A stretch of DNA of 31,526 nt, from positions 1-31,526 of the IMG/VR virus record IMGVR_UViG_3300042323_000521. One strand, written 5' to 3'. This document shows, in pieces, positions 2 through 31,526 of this stretch. This DNA comes from a virus. The position numbers and the translations under genes are program-made. The notes below the pieces were generated by a model. It was given only the letters and a program-made list of their open reading frames with translations. It did not search any database and had not been told where the DNA came from. Within the stretch, counting starts at the first letter, position 1; every line of letters begins with the position of its first letter.

Positions 2-319
2 ATGTACTCTGATTTTCCGGTCAGCGACATTTCGACCCTCCACAAAATTGGCGGGTCGTTTACTTACGGCACACGTTACAATCTGTTTGCGTTGCTTGCC
101 GTTTGCCCTGAGGATGACGATGATGGCGATAGCGGCGGCTACAACGCTCCCGCTCCTGCCGCAGCGCAGCTTCCAGGCTTGCCTGGTGGCGTGCAATCCT
201 GGCCTGCTCCTGGTCAGCAAGTGCAGGCGCCGCCTCAGAACTGGCTGCCGCAACATTCTCAGCCGCCAATGGCGGCGATGCCAGTTAATCCTGTCCAACC
301 TCTCCCCGTCCTTCAATGA
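2..319 (+). CDS. ERF-family single-strand annealing protein (C-terminal part, cut by window edge)
   Basis: The frame is open at the left edge, so the true start lies outside the window. The visible start contains GGSFTYGTRYNLFALLAV followed by an acidic DDDDGD run, which is the typical C-terminal signature of ERF-type phage recombinases (a Gly-Ser-x-Thr-Tyr-Gly-x-Arg-Tyr stretch, then an Asp-rich patch). Members anneal complementary single strands during phage recombination and genome circularisation. About 60 residues rich in Pro, Gln and Ala follow and look disordered. The stop overlaps the next start as ATGA, so the two are translationally coupled. The PD-(D/E)XK nuclease two genes on is the usual partner of such an annealing protein. 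The core fold is not visible, so RecT or Rad52-like alternatives are excluded only by the motif. Confidence 0.8.
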   Translation: MYSDFPVSDISTLHKIGGSFTYGTRYNLFALLAVCPEDDDDGDSGGYNAPAPAAAQLPGLPGGVQSWPAPGQQVQAPPQNWLPQHSQPPMAAMPVNPVQPLPVLQ

Positions 320-1005: not shown

Positions 1006-1895
1006 TGTTTGAACTTCGCTTACTCCCGGCTCAGCCGGGAGTTTTTTTTAGGGAAGAAGACCACAAGTATTTTTATACGGGTGAACCGTATATCGAAGTA
1101 CCGTCGTCTTCGCGCATTATCGCATTGGCCGGCGGCAAGGATTTTGACAAGACGCGATGGCGTCAATCACTGCTGCGCAAAGGGCTTAGCGAATCTGGCG
1201 CTGAGTATTTTATGGAGCGCGTAAGAGATATTCGCGCTGATGTTGGCACAAGGTTTCATGGCATGGCCGGCTTATCGCTTGGCTCTTTTGAGCAGAAAGA
1301 AGTAGCGCCGGAATGCCCTAAAGACGTAGAAGCCGCCGCGATACATAAGCTATGGCTCAAAAGCGTCCTTCCCCGTATCGGGAAGGTCTATGTTATCGAA
1401 GAACCGATGATCCACCCTGGCGGCTGCTATGGCTTGACGCCTGATCTTGTTGCTGAAGTTGACGGCATTGTGACTATGTGCGACTGGAAAAGCAATCAAG
1501 CCGAGCACTACACCGAACGCTATCAGCGACTTTCCGATTACGCTCCAGACGACGAAATCCTGCGTGGCATTTGTGCGCATCTTGCTAATGCTGACTACAA
1601 CGCTGGCAAGGTCAAGGAGGTAACTGCTCGCGTGCGTGATGGCTGGCAAATGCAACAAGGCAGTTACGCTTTCGGCGTTGAAGCAATTCATGGCTTGCGC
1701 GTAGAGCGTGGTATCAATTTTATGCTATCGGTCGATGGTGTCAAGGAGCATACCTGGAACCGGCCTGATCTTGACCAGGGATGGCTCCAGTTCGCTGGCG
1801 GCCTGTTACTGCATCACCAACGATCGGTGATGGCTGGTGGCCATGCTGTCTTCCGATCTGCGCTTAACGCGCTTTTTCCGTTGATGCGTGCCTGA
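1005..1895 (+). CDS. PD-(D/E)XK exonuclease of the phage recombination module
   Basis: This 296-residue protein carries the full nuclease signature: GTRFH with His85, VIEEP with Glu132/133, PDLVAEVD with Asp147, and DWK with Asp160 and Lys162. That is the H...E...D...DxK arrangement of RecB/lambda-exonuclease-like PD-(D/E)XK enzymes. Such enzymes resect double-stranded ends so that an annealing protein, here the ERF protein, can load on the single strand. The ATG at 1005 overlaps the upstream stop by one base and gives the N-terminus MFELRLLPAQPGVFF; the same frame runs open further upstream, but that part only shadows the preceding gene. A terminator-like hairpin lies within codons 6-15. The C-terminal 100 residues match nothing I recognise beyond a possible Q-x3-Y helix (QQGSY). 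Confidence 0.82.
   Translation: MFELRLLPAQPGVFFREEDHKYFYTGEPYIEVPSSSRIIALAGGKDFDKTRWRQSLLRKGLSESGAEYFMERVRDIRADVGTRFHGMAGLSLGSFEQKEVAPECPKDVEAAAIHKLWLKSVLPRIGKVYVIEEPMIHPGGCYGLTPDLVAEVDGIVTMCDWKSNQAEHYTERYQRLSDYAPDDEILRGICAHLANADYNAGKVKEVTARVRDGWQMQQGSYAFGVEAIHGLRVERGINFMLSVDGVKEHTWNRPDLDQGWLQFAGGLLLHHQRSVMAGGHAVFRSALNALFPLMRA
1022..1049 (+). terminator. Intrinsic terminator-like hairpin inside the nuclease reading frame
   Basis: A perfect 9-bp stem ACTCCCGGC / GCCGGGAGT with a TCA loop (1022-1042) ends in a run of eight T (1042-1049). This is a textbook intrinsic terminator on the + strand, but it lies 17 to 44 bases inside the nuclease gene. It may terminate transcripts of the two upstream genes when ribosomes are scarce, or act as an attenuator relieved by translation across it. 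Confidence 0.7.
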
Positions 1896-1909
1896 TTGCG
1901 TGGTATGCT
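1881..1909 (+). promoter_or_regulatory. Promoter of the cyAbrB-like gene
   Basis: TTGATG (1881-1886) and TATGCT (1904-1909) are separated by 17 bases, and the -10 box is preceded by TG (TGGTATGCT), an extended -10. It lies in the last codons of the nuclease gene. The expected transcript start near 1916 sits about 17 bases upstream of the ATG at 1933, which also supports that start over the in-frame codon at 1888. Confidence 0.6.
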
Positions 1910-1932: not shown

Positions 1933-2541
1933 ATGCCCACCAAAACCAAAACCGCTGCTCCCGAACCTGTCCTTGAGGAGCCCATCGAAACCCAAGACCC
2001 TGAAGAGGGGCTGGAGGACTTTGGCGATCTGATGGCCGATGGCGCATCTATCACTGAAGCCGCCGAGCCCGCTGAAGCTGCCACTGGGCCCGTCGAGCCT
2101 GTTGCTCGACTTGTTGGCGCTGAACTGCTCGCCTTCCATAACGAGCAAAAGGCAGCCGGTCGCAGTCACACTGAGATTGCTTTCGACGCCGGTTACCAGA
2201 CCGTCACTAAAACCGGGCAGGAGCGAGTGATGGTCGCGCAATTCAACAAAGCGCTTTTGGAGGCGCAGGGAATTGAAACTGGCGGCGGTCCTACTGGTCC
2301 CGGTCGTTCCCATGCCGGCGAAACCAAGGCTCGCGTTAGCGGTCAAGGCATCTTGTTGGTATCGCAACTGGCGACCCGCAAGATTGGCGCCAAAGTGGGC
2401 GAGGTGTTTGATGTCAGCTATCCCGAGGGTGGCTGCATTCTTCTTACGCCTACTGGCGTCGTGGAGCCCGTCAGGCCACGCAAGAGCGAGCCTGTCGAGC
2501 AGCCTGGCACGCCTCTTTTGGACGGGGCTCAGGCCGCCTGA
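1933..2541 (+). CDS. cyAbrB-like transcriptional regulator
   Basis: This 202-residue protein opens with about 55 acidic, probably disordered residues. Residues 62-115 contain HTEIAFDAGYQTVTKTGQER followed by VMVAQFNKALLEAQG, the pattern of cyanobacterial AbrB-like proteins (typically CGYyTvtknGqtRvn..dFy.ALLaAKG). Residues about 135-172 (GQGILLVSQLATRKIGAKVG, then EVFDVSYPEGGCILLTP) match the C-terminal half of that family. Cellular cyAbrB proteins bind DNA and help control nitrogen, carbon and redox genes. In a phage the likely roles are autoregulation, early/late switching or interference with host regulation; none of these can be decided from sequence. The acidic N-terminal extension is longer than I remember for host copies. 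The start at 1933 is chosen because it falls just downstream of a good promoter. A bidirectional terminator follows the gene. Confidence 0.75.
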   Translation: MPTKTKTAAPEPVLEEPIETQDPEEGLEDFGDLMADGASITEAAEPAEAATGPVEPVARLVGAELLAFHNEQKAAGRSHTEIAFDAGYQTVTKTGQERVMVAQFNKALLEAQGIETGGGPTGPGRSHAGETKARVSGQGILLVSQLATRKIGAKVGEVFDVSYPEGGCILLTPTGVVEPVRPRKSEPVEQPGTPLLDGAQAA

Positions 2542-2643: not shown

Positions 2644-3375
2644 TCACACAAGAAAACGATGTACCCACATTCCGCCTTTGGCTGTATCGACAATGCCGGA
2701 ATCGTAGATCCGCTTAGCATTGAGACTGCCGGCACCAGCAACGCAAGTAGCGTAAATTAGCCGATCGCTGTAGAAACCATCGTAAAACTTGCTCGCTTTG
2801 TCGTAGAACCATTTGACTGCATTAAACTCTGACCACGGATCTTTCACGTTTAGGTCATGGCGATTACTTGTAGCCCTAGCCTTTAAGCCATCGAGACAAA
2901 TAACGTGGCCGCTGCCAGTGAACCAGCCGTGAGTAATCAAGAACTCGCCAGCTTTTAGCCATTCGTAAACTTGCGCCAGGCTTGCGTTGCCTTCATATTT
3001 ATACGGTCTCCCGTAAGCGCGAATCACGCTACTCATTACGGCAGGACTACCCGCTTCACCTTGCGCCAACAGGTTGCGCCTGATTTTCATTACGTCTGAA
3101 TCGCCTACTGCCATGCCAATGCAAGTGGCTTGGCATGTATAAGCATCAGGCTGGCTAAGGTTTAGCGCTTTAATTTTTGTTACCCATTCACTATGTTGCG
3201 CTGGCGTGAGCGGTGGCTGTTTGACTGGTACGGCATTGTTCCAAATGCTTCCCAGCCTGCCATCAGTATCCAGACTGCCGGCAGGCAGTGCGCGTTCAAC
3301 TGCATTCCAGAATGCAGCATGATGCGGCAGATCGAAGTTGGTGTGCTCGACAAATGATCGAATGGATCGTGTCAT
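2644..3375 (-). CDS. Putative endolysin, C39-like papain-fold peptidase
   Basis: This 243-residue protein contains QPDAYTCQATCIGM (Gln75, Cys81), GSGHVICLDG (His157) and NVKDPWSEF (Asp179). This is the Gln..Cys...His...Asp order of C39-like papain-fold peptidases, with Gln75 six residues before the nucleophile as the expected oxyanion residue. It directly follows a holin-like gene with an ATGA overlap, so it is most likely the enzyme that cuts cell-wall peptide bonds at lysis. No signal peptide is present, in keeping with holin-dependent release. The C-terminal 60 residues could hold a wall-binding part, but I recognise none. The alternative is a virion-associated or processing peptidase. It is the last gene of the leftward late block. 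Confidence 0.7.
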   Translation of the reverse strand: MTRSIRSFVEHTNFDLPHHAAFWNAVERALPAGSLDTDGRLGSIWNNAVPVKQPPLTPAQHSEWVTKIKALNLSQPDAYTCQATCIGMAVGDSDVMKIRRNLLAQGEAGSPAVMSSVIRAYGRPYKYEGNASLAQVYEWLKAGEFLITHGWFTGSGHVICLDGLKARATSNRHDLNVKDPWSEFNAVKWFYDKASKFYDGFYSDRLIYATCVAGAGSLNAKRIYDSGIVDTAKGGMWVHRFLV

Positions 3376-29951: not shown

Positions 29952-30223
29952 TAGCGAACTGTCCCATTGAGGCGATCCTCTACTAGCTTGGCGTAACCGG
30001 CAATGTCGTGCCAGCTATCGGCATAATTTGGGTCGCCGCAAGCAATTCGCCCAATTTTATGGCAGATCATATCCAGCGCCTCCTGCTGATCTGGCTCCAG
30101 TGACTCAGGGGAGCCAAGGTAGCGCCTGATGGTTGCCTTCAGCTCCTGCGTTATCGCAGCATGATGCACGAAGCTGCCATAGCGGCTGCCGCGTTCCTGC
30201 AGCGTCTCTTCAAGATTTGCCAT
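29951..30223 (-). CDS. DUF6378-like phage protein
   Basis: This 90-residue protein starts at ATG 30223, four bases after the deaminase stop. The text ETLQERGSRYGSFVHHAAIT, then ALDMICHKIGRIACGDPNYA and DSWHDIAGYAKLVEDRL matches the DUF6378-type family (RG.RYG.f..hA.itq.lK..... l..dq.eALdMI..KiaRi..GdpnY.DsW.DiaGYa.Lv). Such genes are common in phages and often neighbour nucleotide-metabolism genes, but their function is not established to my knowledge. An ATG at 30292 extends the frame over the deaminase gene and is rejected. Confidence 0.78.
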   Translation of the reverse strand: MANLEETLQERGSRYGSFVHHAAITQELKATIRRYLGSPESLEPDQQEALDMICHKIGRIACGDPNYADSWHDIAGYAKLVEDRLNGTVR

Positions 30224-30227
30224 GACT

Positions 30228-30740
30228 CTATCCCTTTGATGCAGTAACGGTTGCATCACCATTGTACCTGCCGGTGACGGCATAGCAAGCAAGCGGCGTT
30301 GCGTCCATGCGTGAAAACTTCATTTGACCGATCCTTAGTCCTGGCCATAGCTTGATCGGGTGAAGCTGGCGAACATTTTTCAGCTCTAGCGTCAGCTTTG
30401 AGCCGTGCCAGCCTGGATCGCAATGACCAGCAAGAAGATGCTGAAGCGCGCCCCTTGCGCGACTTGACTTAAGCAAAAACTGGCCTGTAATGCTTTTGGG
30501 TAAATTAAAAGTCTCCATCGTTTCTGCTAGCAAAAACTGTCCTGGCACCATCAGGTAGGGCTCCTCTTCTGTGTAACCTTCGATCGACATTGGCACAAGC
30601 TCTGGACTTTGCGCAGATTCAATTAAGATATTGTCTCCCAAGCGTAAGTCTAGCGAGGCCGGGTTAATCAATTCTGGGTCAAATGGAGTTACCATGCCGG
30701 CTTCGCAAAGGGCGCGAATCTGGAAATCAGCAAGAATCAT
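30228..30740 (-). CDS. dcd: dCTP deaminase
   Basis: This 170-residue protein starts MILADFQIRALCEAGMVTPF with the INPASLDLRLGDN motif (residues 25-37) of dCTP deaminase/dUTPase-fold enzymes. KSSRARG (91-97), HCDPGWHG (106-113) and LTLELKN (116-122) follow, including the catalytic Glu119 expected in LE(l/f). WPGLRIGQMKF (132-142) is the conserved substrate-side strand. The enzyme converts dCTP to dUTP on the way to dTTP and would raise thymidylate supply for phage replication. Start 30740 lies about 23 bases downstream of a -10 box (TAGGAT). Bifunctional dCTP deaminase/dUTPase cannot be excluded; no thymidylate synthase is visible. Confidence 0.85.
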   Translation of the reverse strand: MILADFQIRALCEAGMVTPFDPELINPASLDLRLGDNILIESAQSPELVPMSIEGYTEEEPYLMVPGQFLLAETMETFNLPKSITGQFLLKSSRARGALQHLLAGHCDPGWHGSKLTLELKNVRQLHPIKLWPGLRIGQMKFSRMDATPLACYAVTGRYNGDATVTASKG

Positions 30741-30967: not shown

Positions 30968-30979
30968 GCGTGCTATGAT
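30953..30979 (+). promoter_or_regulatory. Promoter of the right-end gene (second GCTATGATTGAC)
   Basis: TTGACG (30953-30958) and TATGAT (30974-30979) are 15 bases apart, with TG one base before the -10 box (TGCTATGAT), an extended -10. The 12-mer GCTATGATTGAC covers 30972-30983. The expected start near 30986 gives a 5' leader of about 20 bases to the ATG at 31007. It overlaps the end of the 53-residue gene. Confidence 0.65.
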
Positions 30980-31006: not shown

Positions 31007-31526
31007 ATGAACAAAGCCTCAGCAACAAATTCGCCCAAACTGAGCAAAACCGAAAAAATGCTGCTTATAGCAAAGAATTACTGGGATTACACGGCTCAGC
31101 CGATTGTTTTTGTAGCGCCAACAATGGTAATGGCTGCAGATGTTCGGAATCGCTTTTTTAGGCTGATAGAGTCTTGTTATGATGGACCGGAAAACCCTCG
31201 CAGAGTGCGCTGCCTTTCGCTTTGCGAGCACGATGGGCTAAAAAGCCTCACGGGCACGCGAAATACTGCTTTTTTCTTTGATCACACTTGTCTTGAGGGC
31301 AGCGATTCACTTGAGGCCGCAGAAAAACTGGTCAACGCAATTTGGGAAAACAGACTTGGGGAAGCCGTGACCCCTTACCATGCTGGCTTCATTGGGGCGC
31401 TTGCCAAACGTGTACCTTGCCCGTGGGGGAGGGAAGATGGCCGCGAAACGTTTTACCCTGCAGACTATCCTCCAATGAACGACCCTAGCAAGAAAATGGC
31501 CGATTCTCTAGCACGCAAAATTCTAT
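31007..31526 (+). CDS. Unrecognised protein, N-terminal 173 residues (cut by window edge)
   Basis: The frame from ATG 31007 is open to the window end, so at least 173 residues are encoded. It begins MNKASATNSPKLSKTEKMLL, then IAKNYWDYTAQPIVFVAPTM and VMAADVRNRFFRLIESCY. Later text includes EHDGLKSLTGTRNTAFFFDH and AAEKLVNAIWENRLGEAVTP. The core alternates hydrophobic strands (PIVFVAP, NTAFFFD) and helices, suggesting a globular alpha/beta enzyme or regulator, but I see no Walker, HTH or nuclease motif. It has a strong own promoter. Whether it is a replication or early gene depends on what lies beyond the window. Confidence 0.7.
   Translation, partial: MNKASATNSPKLSKTEKMLLIAKNYWDYTAQPIVFVAPTMVMAADVRNRFFRLIESCYDGPENPRRVRCLSLCEHDGLKSLTGTRNTAFFFDHTCLEGSDSLEAAEKLVNAIWENRLGEAVTPYHAGFIGALAKRVPCPWGREDGRETFYPADYPPMNDPSKKMADSLARKIL

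Follow-up and report, generated by a model that had tools for sequence, protein, structure and literature searches.

The window analysed here is a whole virus record of 31,526 bases. Its portal protein was closest to those of the isolated cyanosiphoviruses S-2L, S-H1, MED4-184, P-HS2, MED4-117, and KBS-S-2A, and S-2L gave the best TerL match by E-value among the matches listed (3e-69). The contig was therefore assigned to a cyanophage (cyanosiphovirus), and we infer a cyanobacterial host from these phage relatives. The gene under study, abrB, was described in a first-pass annotation as lying after the recombination genes, and this was the case: an Erf-type annealing gene, an SSB-like or unknown gene, and an exonuclease gene precede it. 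The features of the locus are as follows.

2..319, + strand: Erf-type ssDNA-annealing gene, 3' part, cut by the contig end (phrog_2324, E 1.5e-5; full length in the related contig L002)
1005..1895, + strand: exonuclease gene (phrog_298 exonuclease, E 1.1e-11), the constant upstream neighbour of abrB
1022..1049, + strand: intrinsic-terminator-like hairpin followed by T8, within the exonuclease coding sequence at its 5' end; a putative attenuator ahead of the abrB promoter
1881..1909, + strand: putative promoter TTGATG-N17-TATGCT with an extended -10 (TGG), recognized by conservation; transcription start expected near 1916
1933..2541, + strand: phage cyAbrB-family gene, 202 aa with an ATG start, assigned by PF14250, a profile-profile match and synteny with the exonuclease gene
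1933..2106, + strand: acidic N-terminal extension, predicted disordered (residues 1-58, net -13)
2107..2280, + strand: cyAbrB N-domain (residues 59-116), in which the host Cys position is Ala86
2320..2463, + strand: C-terminal SpoVT-AbrB fold (residues 130-177), from Foldseek and VIA
2464..2538, + strand: disordered C-terminal tail with a [GS]TPLLD motif, from 20 complete phage proteins
2594..2623, both strands: two-way terminator-like hairpin, placed where the early (+) and late (-) gene blocks run into each other

The ATG start of abrB is backed by the motif M[P/A][T/V][K/R], which occurs at the same place in 20 aligned relatives and makes a longer GTG form from 1888 unnecessary. PF14250 ('AbrB-like', the cyAbrB family) matched residues 103-162 with E 2e-5 and 25.1 bits, just above the threshold of 25 (E 1.4e-7 when searched within the contig alone), and at E 0.01 it matched 12 of the 21 phage family members. 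The score is marginal because the phage protein has diverged, and the match was clear when the relatives were used as a profile. With hhalign, the phage-family profile matched the host cyAbrB profile at 98.9% probability and E 1.8e-17 over 116 columns (residues 60-178), which confirmed the earlier assignment to the cyAbrB type. The cyAbrB core spans residues 59-178 and consists of the helical N-domain and the C-terminal SpoVT-AbrB fold. All 80 loci found for the genome relatives were cyanobacterial, and PF14250 was present in one of 14 control genomes, S. elongatus. By these comparisons, the window gene is in line with the confinement of cyAbrB to cyanobacteria and their mobile elements.

IMG/VR was scanned with the neighbouring exonuclease, which yielded 21 other viral contigs with exonucleases 65-98% identical to that of the window. 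The abrB gene lay directly 3' of the exonuclease gene in all 21. Its description as phage-borne also held. A search of IMG/VR with the AbrB family itself recovered the same lineage and one further contig. In the alignment of 21 phage proteins, the start motif, the core and the PLLD tail were conserved, and the N-terminal extension was 50-94 residues long, hypervariable in sequence and acidic in every protein (net -9 to -25). PLL was present in 20/20 complete phage proteins and [GS]TPLLD in 19/20 (PGTPLLD at the end of the window protein), while a PLL[D/E] tail, sought in 137 host proteins, was found in none. The dN/dS in pairs with the window was about 0.5 for the extension and about 0.2 for the core, and by this measure the core is under purifying selection. 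The family has no entry in the collections searched: the 202-aa protein matched nothing by tblastn among 50,697 phage records, gave a weak chance match alone in PHROGs (E 0.12), and fell into no family of NCBIfam. A search of the PDB by sequence returned nothing meaningful. In one pair of relatives (L106 and L109), the abrB cores were nearly identical (dS 0.01) and the extensions far apart (dS 0.37), as if the extension had been swapped by recombination.

The first-pass annotation had also given the gene its own promoter, and comparison of the relatives upheld this. The gap between the exonuclease gene and abrB is 37 nt in the window and 33-44 nt across the relatives. All 15 distinct homologues kept TGnTAnnnT without change, compared with 2 invariant positions among 37 fourfold-degenerate sites of the exonuclease gene, and almost all relatives had a TTG 17 nt before the -10. 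The comparison indicates that the conservation of this promoter motif is not due to chance. A generic promoter scan of the window reported no promoter at abrB, because its threshold was 9/12 matches; the comparison of relatives revealed it. Further upstream, the hairpin with T7-8 within codons 1-16 of the exonuclease gene was kept in all related phages examined (L002, L007, L100-L118), and alternative stems, CTCCCGGCTCAGCCGGGAG or GCCCCCGCAAGGGGGC, preserve the pairing. Synonymous recoding equalled the hairpin and T8 of the window in only 10 of 20,000 trials. This element looks like a coding-region attenuator, and transcription from upstream may be attenuated, which would account for the separate abrB promoter. 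Another extended -10 resembling that of abrB, TGCTATGAT, was found at 30971-30979 before a + strand gene at 31007, and is possibly the promoter of an early + strand operon that runs off the contig.

To describe the protein itself, AlphaFold2 was run over 53 phage and host sequences, and four parts were distinguished in the window protein. The extension (residues 1-58) contains 15 D/E and 2 K/R for a net charge of -13, as the earlier description of an acidic N-terminal extension had it, and was modelled without secondary structure at a pLDDT of about 50-55. Residues 61-113 were modelled with confidence (pLDDT 92-97) as a helical domain that includes a hairpin; its helices span 62-74, 79-85, and 101-111. 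Foldseek and VIA likened this N-domain to the HTH domains of ToxT, GerE, and Lrp at Z 3-4, a similarity that was not counted toward function. Residues 130-175 were modelled as an AbrB-type half-barrel (pLDDT 80-88), and the fourth part, the C-terminal tail, came out disordered. Foldseek related the C-terminal part to SpoVT (prob 0.99), and the model of residues 126-177 resembled SpoVT/AbrB/MazE folds and archaeal relatives, with VIA Z scores of 4.2 for SpoVT and 3.9 for MazE and 5itj. The model thus places an AbrB-type domain in the C-terminal half, as in cyAbrB; a C-terminal AbrB domain is the trait that separates cyAbrB from other AbrB proteins (PMC4284466).

The order of domains, namely a helical N-domain, a Gly-rich linker, and a C-terminal AbrB-type fold, is common to the phage protein and to cyAbrB1 and cyAbrB2 of Synechocystis (Sll0359/Sll0822, PF14250). 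The phage proteins differ from these in the PLLD tail, in Ala for the redox Cys, in the loss of several invariant basic residues, and in forming a separate clade. The host and phage cores were about 27-38% identical. The host extension has a median of 9 residues and a charge of +1, in contrast to the long acidic arm of the phage proteins. The plasmid and chromosomal cyAbrBs of Calothrix also carry a long extension, of about 54 residues, but this is Lys-rich (+5 to +11) and thus opposite in charge to that of the phage.

At the conserved host Cys column, 133 of 135 hosts have Cys, whereas all 20 phage sequences have Ala (Ala86 in the window). When the conserved C34 of cyAbrB2 is glutathionylated, the protein no longer binds DNA, which links it to the redox state (PMC13421787, PMC4284466). 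The column was equated with C34 by its position in typical host sequences, not via the Synechocystis sequence, since it is the sole conserved Cys column and stands at residue 34 in typical hosts. On this alignment, the phage family lacks the Cys of a cyAbrB2-type redox switch. Moreover, most phage proteins carry His where 135/135 hosts have Arg; the RK of the host GRKHIHL is absent from the phage family, and residue 134 is Arg (or Lys) in all phage proteins. A loss of overall positive charge in the core was considered and ruled out, the net charge of the core being 0 to +6 across the phage proteins. The protein may therefore bind DNA, and could do so in the ordinary way of a plain regulator.

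A tree was then built from 83 cores, including 64 host copies; its roughly 115 columns and long branches do not fix the exact root. The phage proteins came together in one clade (100/100), set apart by a long branch from every one of the 64 host copies, and this clade persisted after other viral cyAbrBs were added. The cyAbrB assignment of the first-pass annotation was thus sustained by the profile comparison, while the tree set the protein apart from the cyanobacterial copies rather than among them. In this topology, the phage cyAbrB is homologous to those of the hosts, as a sister or highly diverged group, and represents an old phage family. It is therefore not closely derived from any host gene of today, and recent capture from a host was ruled out. 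An integrated or prophage form was sought among 300 genomes from a picocyanobacterial family and none was seen; 289 of these genomes matched, and the best score of 64 bits was in the range of host-type proteins. Small picocyanobacterial-type genomes (G187, G276, G310, G330, G336, G368, and others) carried 3-7 cyAbrB copies, and most other cyanobacteria carried 2.

The family is not the only cyAbrB carried by cyanophages. With a host-type protein as the query, cyAbrB relatives turned up in at least 269 viral stretches, and among the 80 kept loci of this search, TerL was nearby in 62 and portal in 63. A short cyAbrB family of 105-115 aa was observed in uncultured cyanophages (L214-L279; e.g., L217:5001-5336 and L251:5001-5339) and lay between terL and portal in the loci whose neighbours were inspected. 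A full-length match to the short cyAbrBs was sought in cultured phages and none was found at this similarity. The small contigs in this set could be host fragments, but the TerL and portal neighbours speak against this for most of them. The short proteins are phage-borne in cyanosiphoviruses with related TerL, as here; they differ from the window family in having neither the acidic arm nor the PLLD tail, in retaining the Cys, and in nesting with picocyanobacterial copies. An entry of BFVD, the 'AbrB family transcriptional regulator' of the uncultured phage MedDCM-OCT-S39-C11, was grouped with them.

In larger contigs of about 55-62 kb (L202, L204, L206, and L207), a host-like cyAbrB is followed by a 251-aa gene and then a RecT gene, with a sigma factor further along in L202 and exonuclease VIII in L207. 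These cyAbrBs were about 70% identical to picocyanobacterial copies and lay 1.3-1.8 kb from the RecT gene. Both the terL/portal group and the RecT group clustered with picocyanobacterial copies in trees. Two cultured cyanomyophages carry reduced forms: Prochlorococcus phage P-TIM68 (L280:2501-2659) has an N-domain-only cyAbrB with Thr for the redox Cys, and Synechococcus phage B23 (L281:2411-2839) has a truncated cyAbrB with a replaced C-terminus and Ala for the redox Cys. Carriage of cyAbrB is common among uncultured cyanophages, and cyanophages as a whole seem to have acquired it at least twice. No papers on phage cyAbrB were found in the open-access literature.

In host cells, cyAbrB2 occupies extended AT-rich tracts as well as 80 of 125 insertion elements, which it represses, and cyAbrB1 interacts with cyAbrB2 (PMC11368403). 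We tentatively propose, with somewhat less than even confidence, that abrB encodes a divergent, phage-specific cyAbrB that is expressed early from its own promoter and acts as a redox-blind modulator or counter-silencer of host cyAbrB silencing. The protein would be made early, from the extended -10 promoter closing the recombination operon. Its cyAbrB core would most likely bind DNA and/or host cyAbrB subunits, and the acidic disordered arm, together with the conserved C-terminal tail, would weaken or redirect the cyAbrB1/2 silencing complexes on AT-rich and on foreign DNA. Phage DNA would thereby stay transcribable, the protein serving as a counter-silencer or dominant modulator. During infection, the virus would in this way disturb gene silencing by the host or take its place. 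Because the Cys that is glutathionylated in host cyAbrB2 is replaced by Ala, this action would be independent of the redox state of the cell. The sequence data are also compatible with an earlier suggestion that the protein blocks host cyAbrB through mixed oligomers.

Phages that relieve silencing by the H-NS family exist (PMC8501957). The proposed logic is like that of the H-NS-family counter-silencers LUZ24 gp4 and T4 MotB, in which a phage protein alters a nucleoid-associated silencer of the host (PMC8501957, PMC7827196). These two differ from the present case in that neither is known as a paralogue of cyAbrB, and for the window protein such an action is our inference. We know of no sequence kinship between either of them and the window protein. 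The literature searched contained no report of cyAbrB as a silencer of phage DNA.

The promoter and terminators would also suit a transcription switch that binds phage promoters and sets the change from early to late expression, with no dealings with host cyAbrB. The gene closes the early (+) block, has a promoter of its own, and shares a bidirectional terminator with the late (-) block that runs toward it; its core has the SpoVT-AbrB fold, and the second extended -10 before the gene at 31007 is of the same type. We consider such a switch unlikely, though a serious contender. A repeated operator-like motif was sought in the intergenic regions of the window and nothing convincing was found, and a switch leaves unexplained both the conserved acidic arm and the occurrence of cyAbrBs elsewhere in unrelated cyanophages.

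Because abrB is always found beside the exonuclease and Erf genes, a role as an accessory of recombination or replication also has to be considered, in which the protein would coat or mark phage DNA or work with the exonuclease/Erf pair; the acidic arm would repel non-specific DNA and the PLLD tail would provide a docking site for a partner, as the acidic tail does in SSB. The conserved tail motif and the host-like cyAbrBs close to RecT genes in other cyanophages agree with it, but a third lineage carries cyAbrB between terminase and portal, away from recombination genes, and to our knowledge no cyAbrB acts in recombination. We regard this role as decidedly unlikely.

The first-pass annotation had further suggested that the phage copy may reprogramme host metabolism. 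On this reading it would be a replacement cyAbrB that shifts nitrogen, carbon, or photosynthesis genes. Host cyAbrB regulons do include nitrogen, carbon, and hydrogenase genes (PMC13421787), but no evidence for an effect on nitrogen or carbon genes emerged here. Identity to the host copies is about 35% and many host-invariant residues are missing, so the same site preference is unlikely, and no metabolic genes were seen around abrB. This reading is accordingly quite improbable. The remaining suggestion was that the acidic extension is a DNA mimic. By itself it would then pass for DNA and inhibit a host nuclease or cyAbrB, just as host enzymes are inhibited by the phage DNA mimics Ocr and Gam. 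This reading is favoured by the net charge of -9 to -25 in 21/21 proteins but was weakened to a very slight chance by an arm of 50-94 aa that is variable in sequence and predicted disordered (a low pLDDT that is compatible with folding on binding), since the DNA mimics known to us are folded. Overall, the observation behind the first-pass annotation was confirmed and extended, and its interpretation was supported in part.

If the counter-silencer reading is true, cyAbrB would be a xenogeneic silencer against phage DNA. Among candidates for nucleoid proteins in cyanobacteria, cyAbrB ranks first, and it may silence foreign DNA in the manner of H-NS or Lsr2; a conserved, altered phage paralogue is evidence to be expected if it does. 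The phage cyAbrB would then be a ready tool for finding host genes released from silencing. A broader claim, that these redox-blind, acid-armed cyAbrB paralogues form a dedicated family of cyanophage anti-silencers within a wider, undescribed cyanophage habit of cyAbrB uptake, strikes us as rather doubtful.

Beyond the terminator-like hairpin, the gene after abrB differs between relatives. In the window, a gene at 2644-3375 (-) weakly resembles a C70-type cysteine peptidase, while the corresponding gene of a relative (L007:2216-2797, -) encodes an L,D-transpeptidase (YkuD) domain; the swapped genes perhaps encode alternative lysis enzymes. In addition, a dCTP deaminase-like gene at 29954-30740 (-) adjoins a DUF6378 gene in the window.
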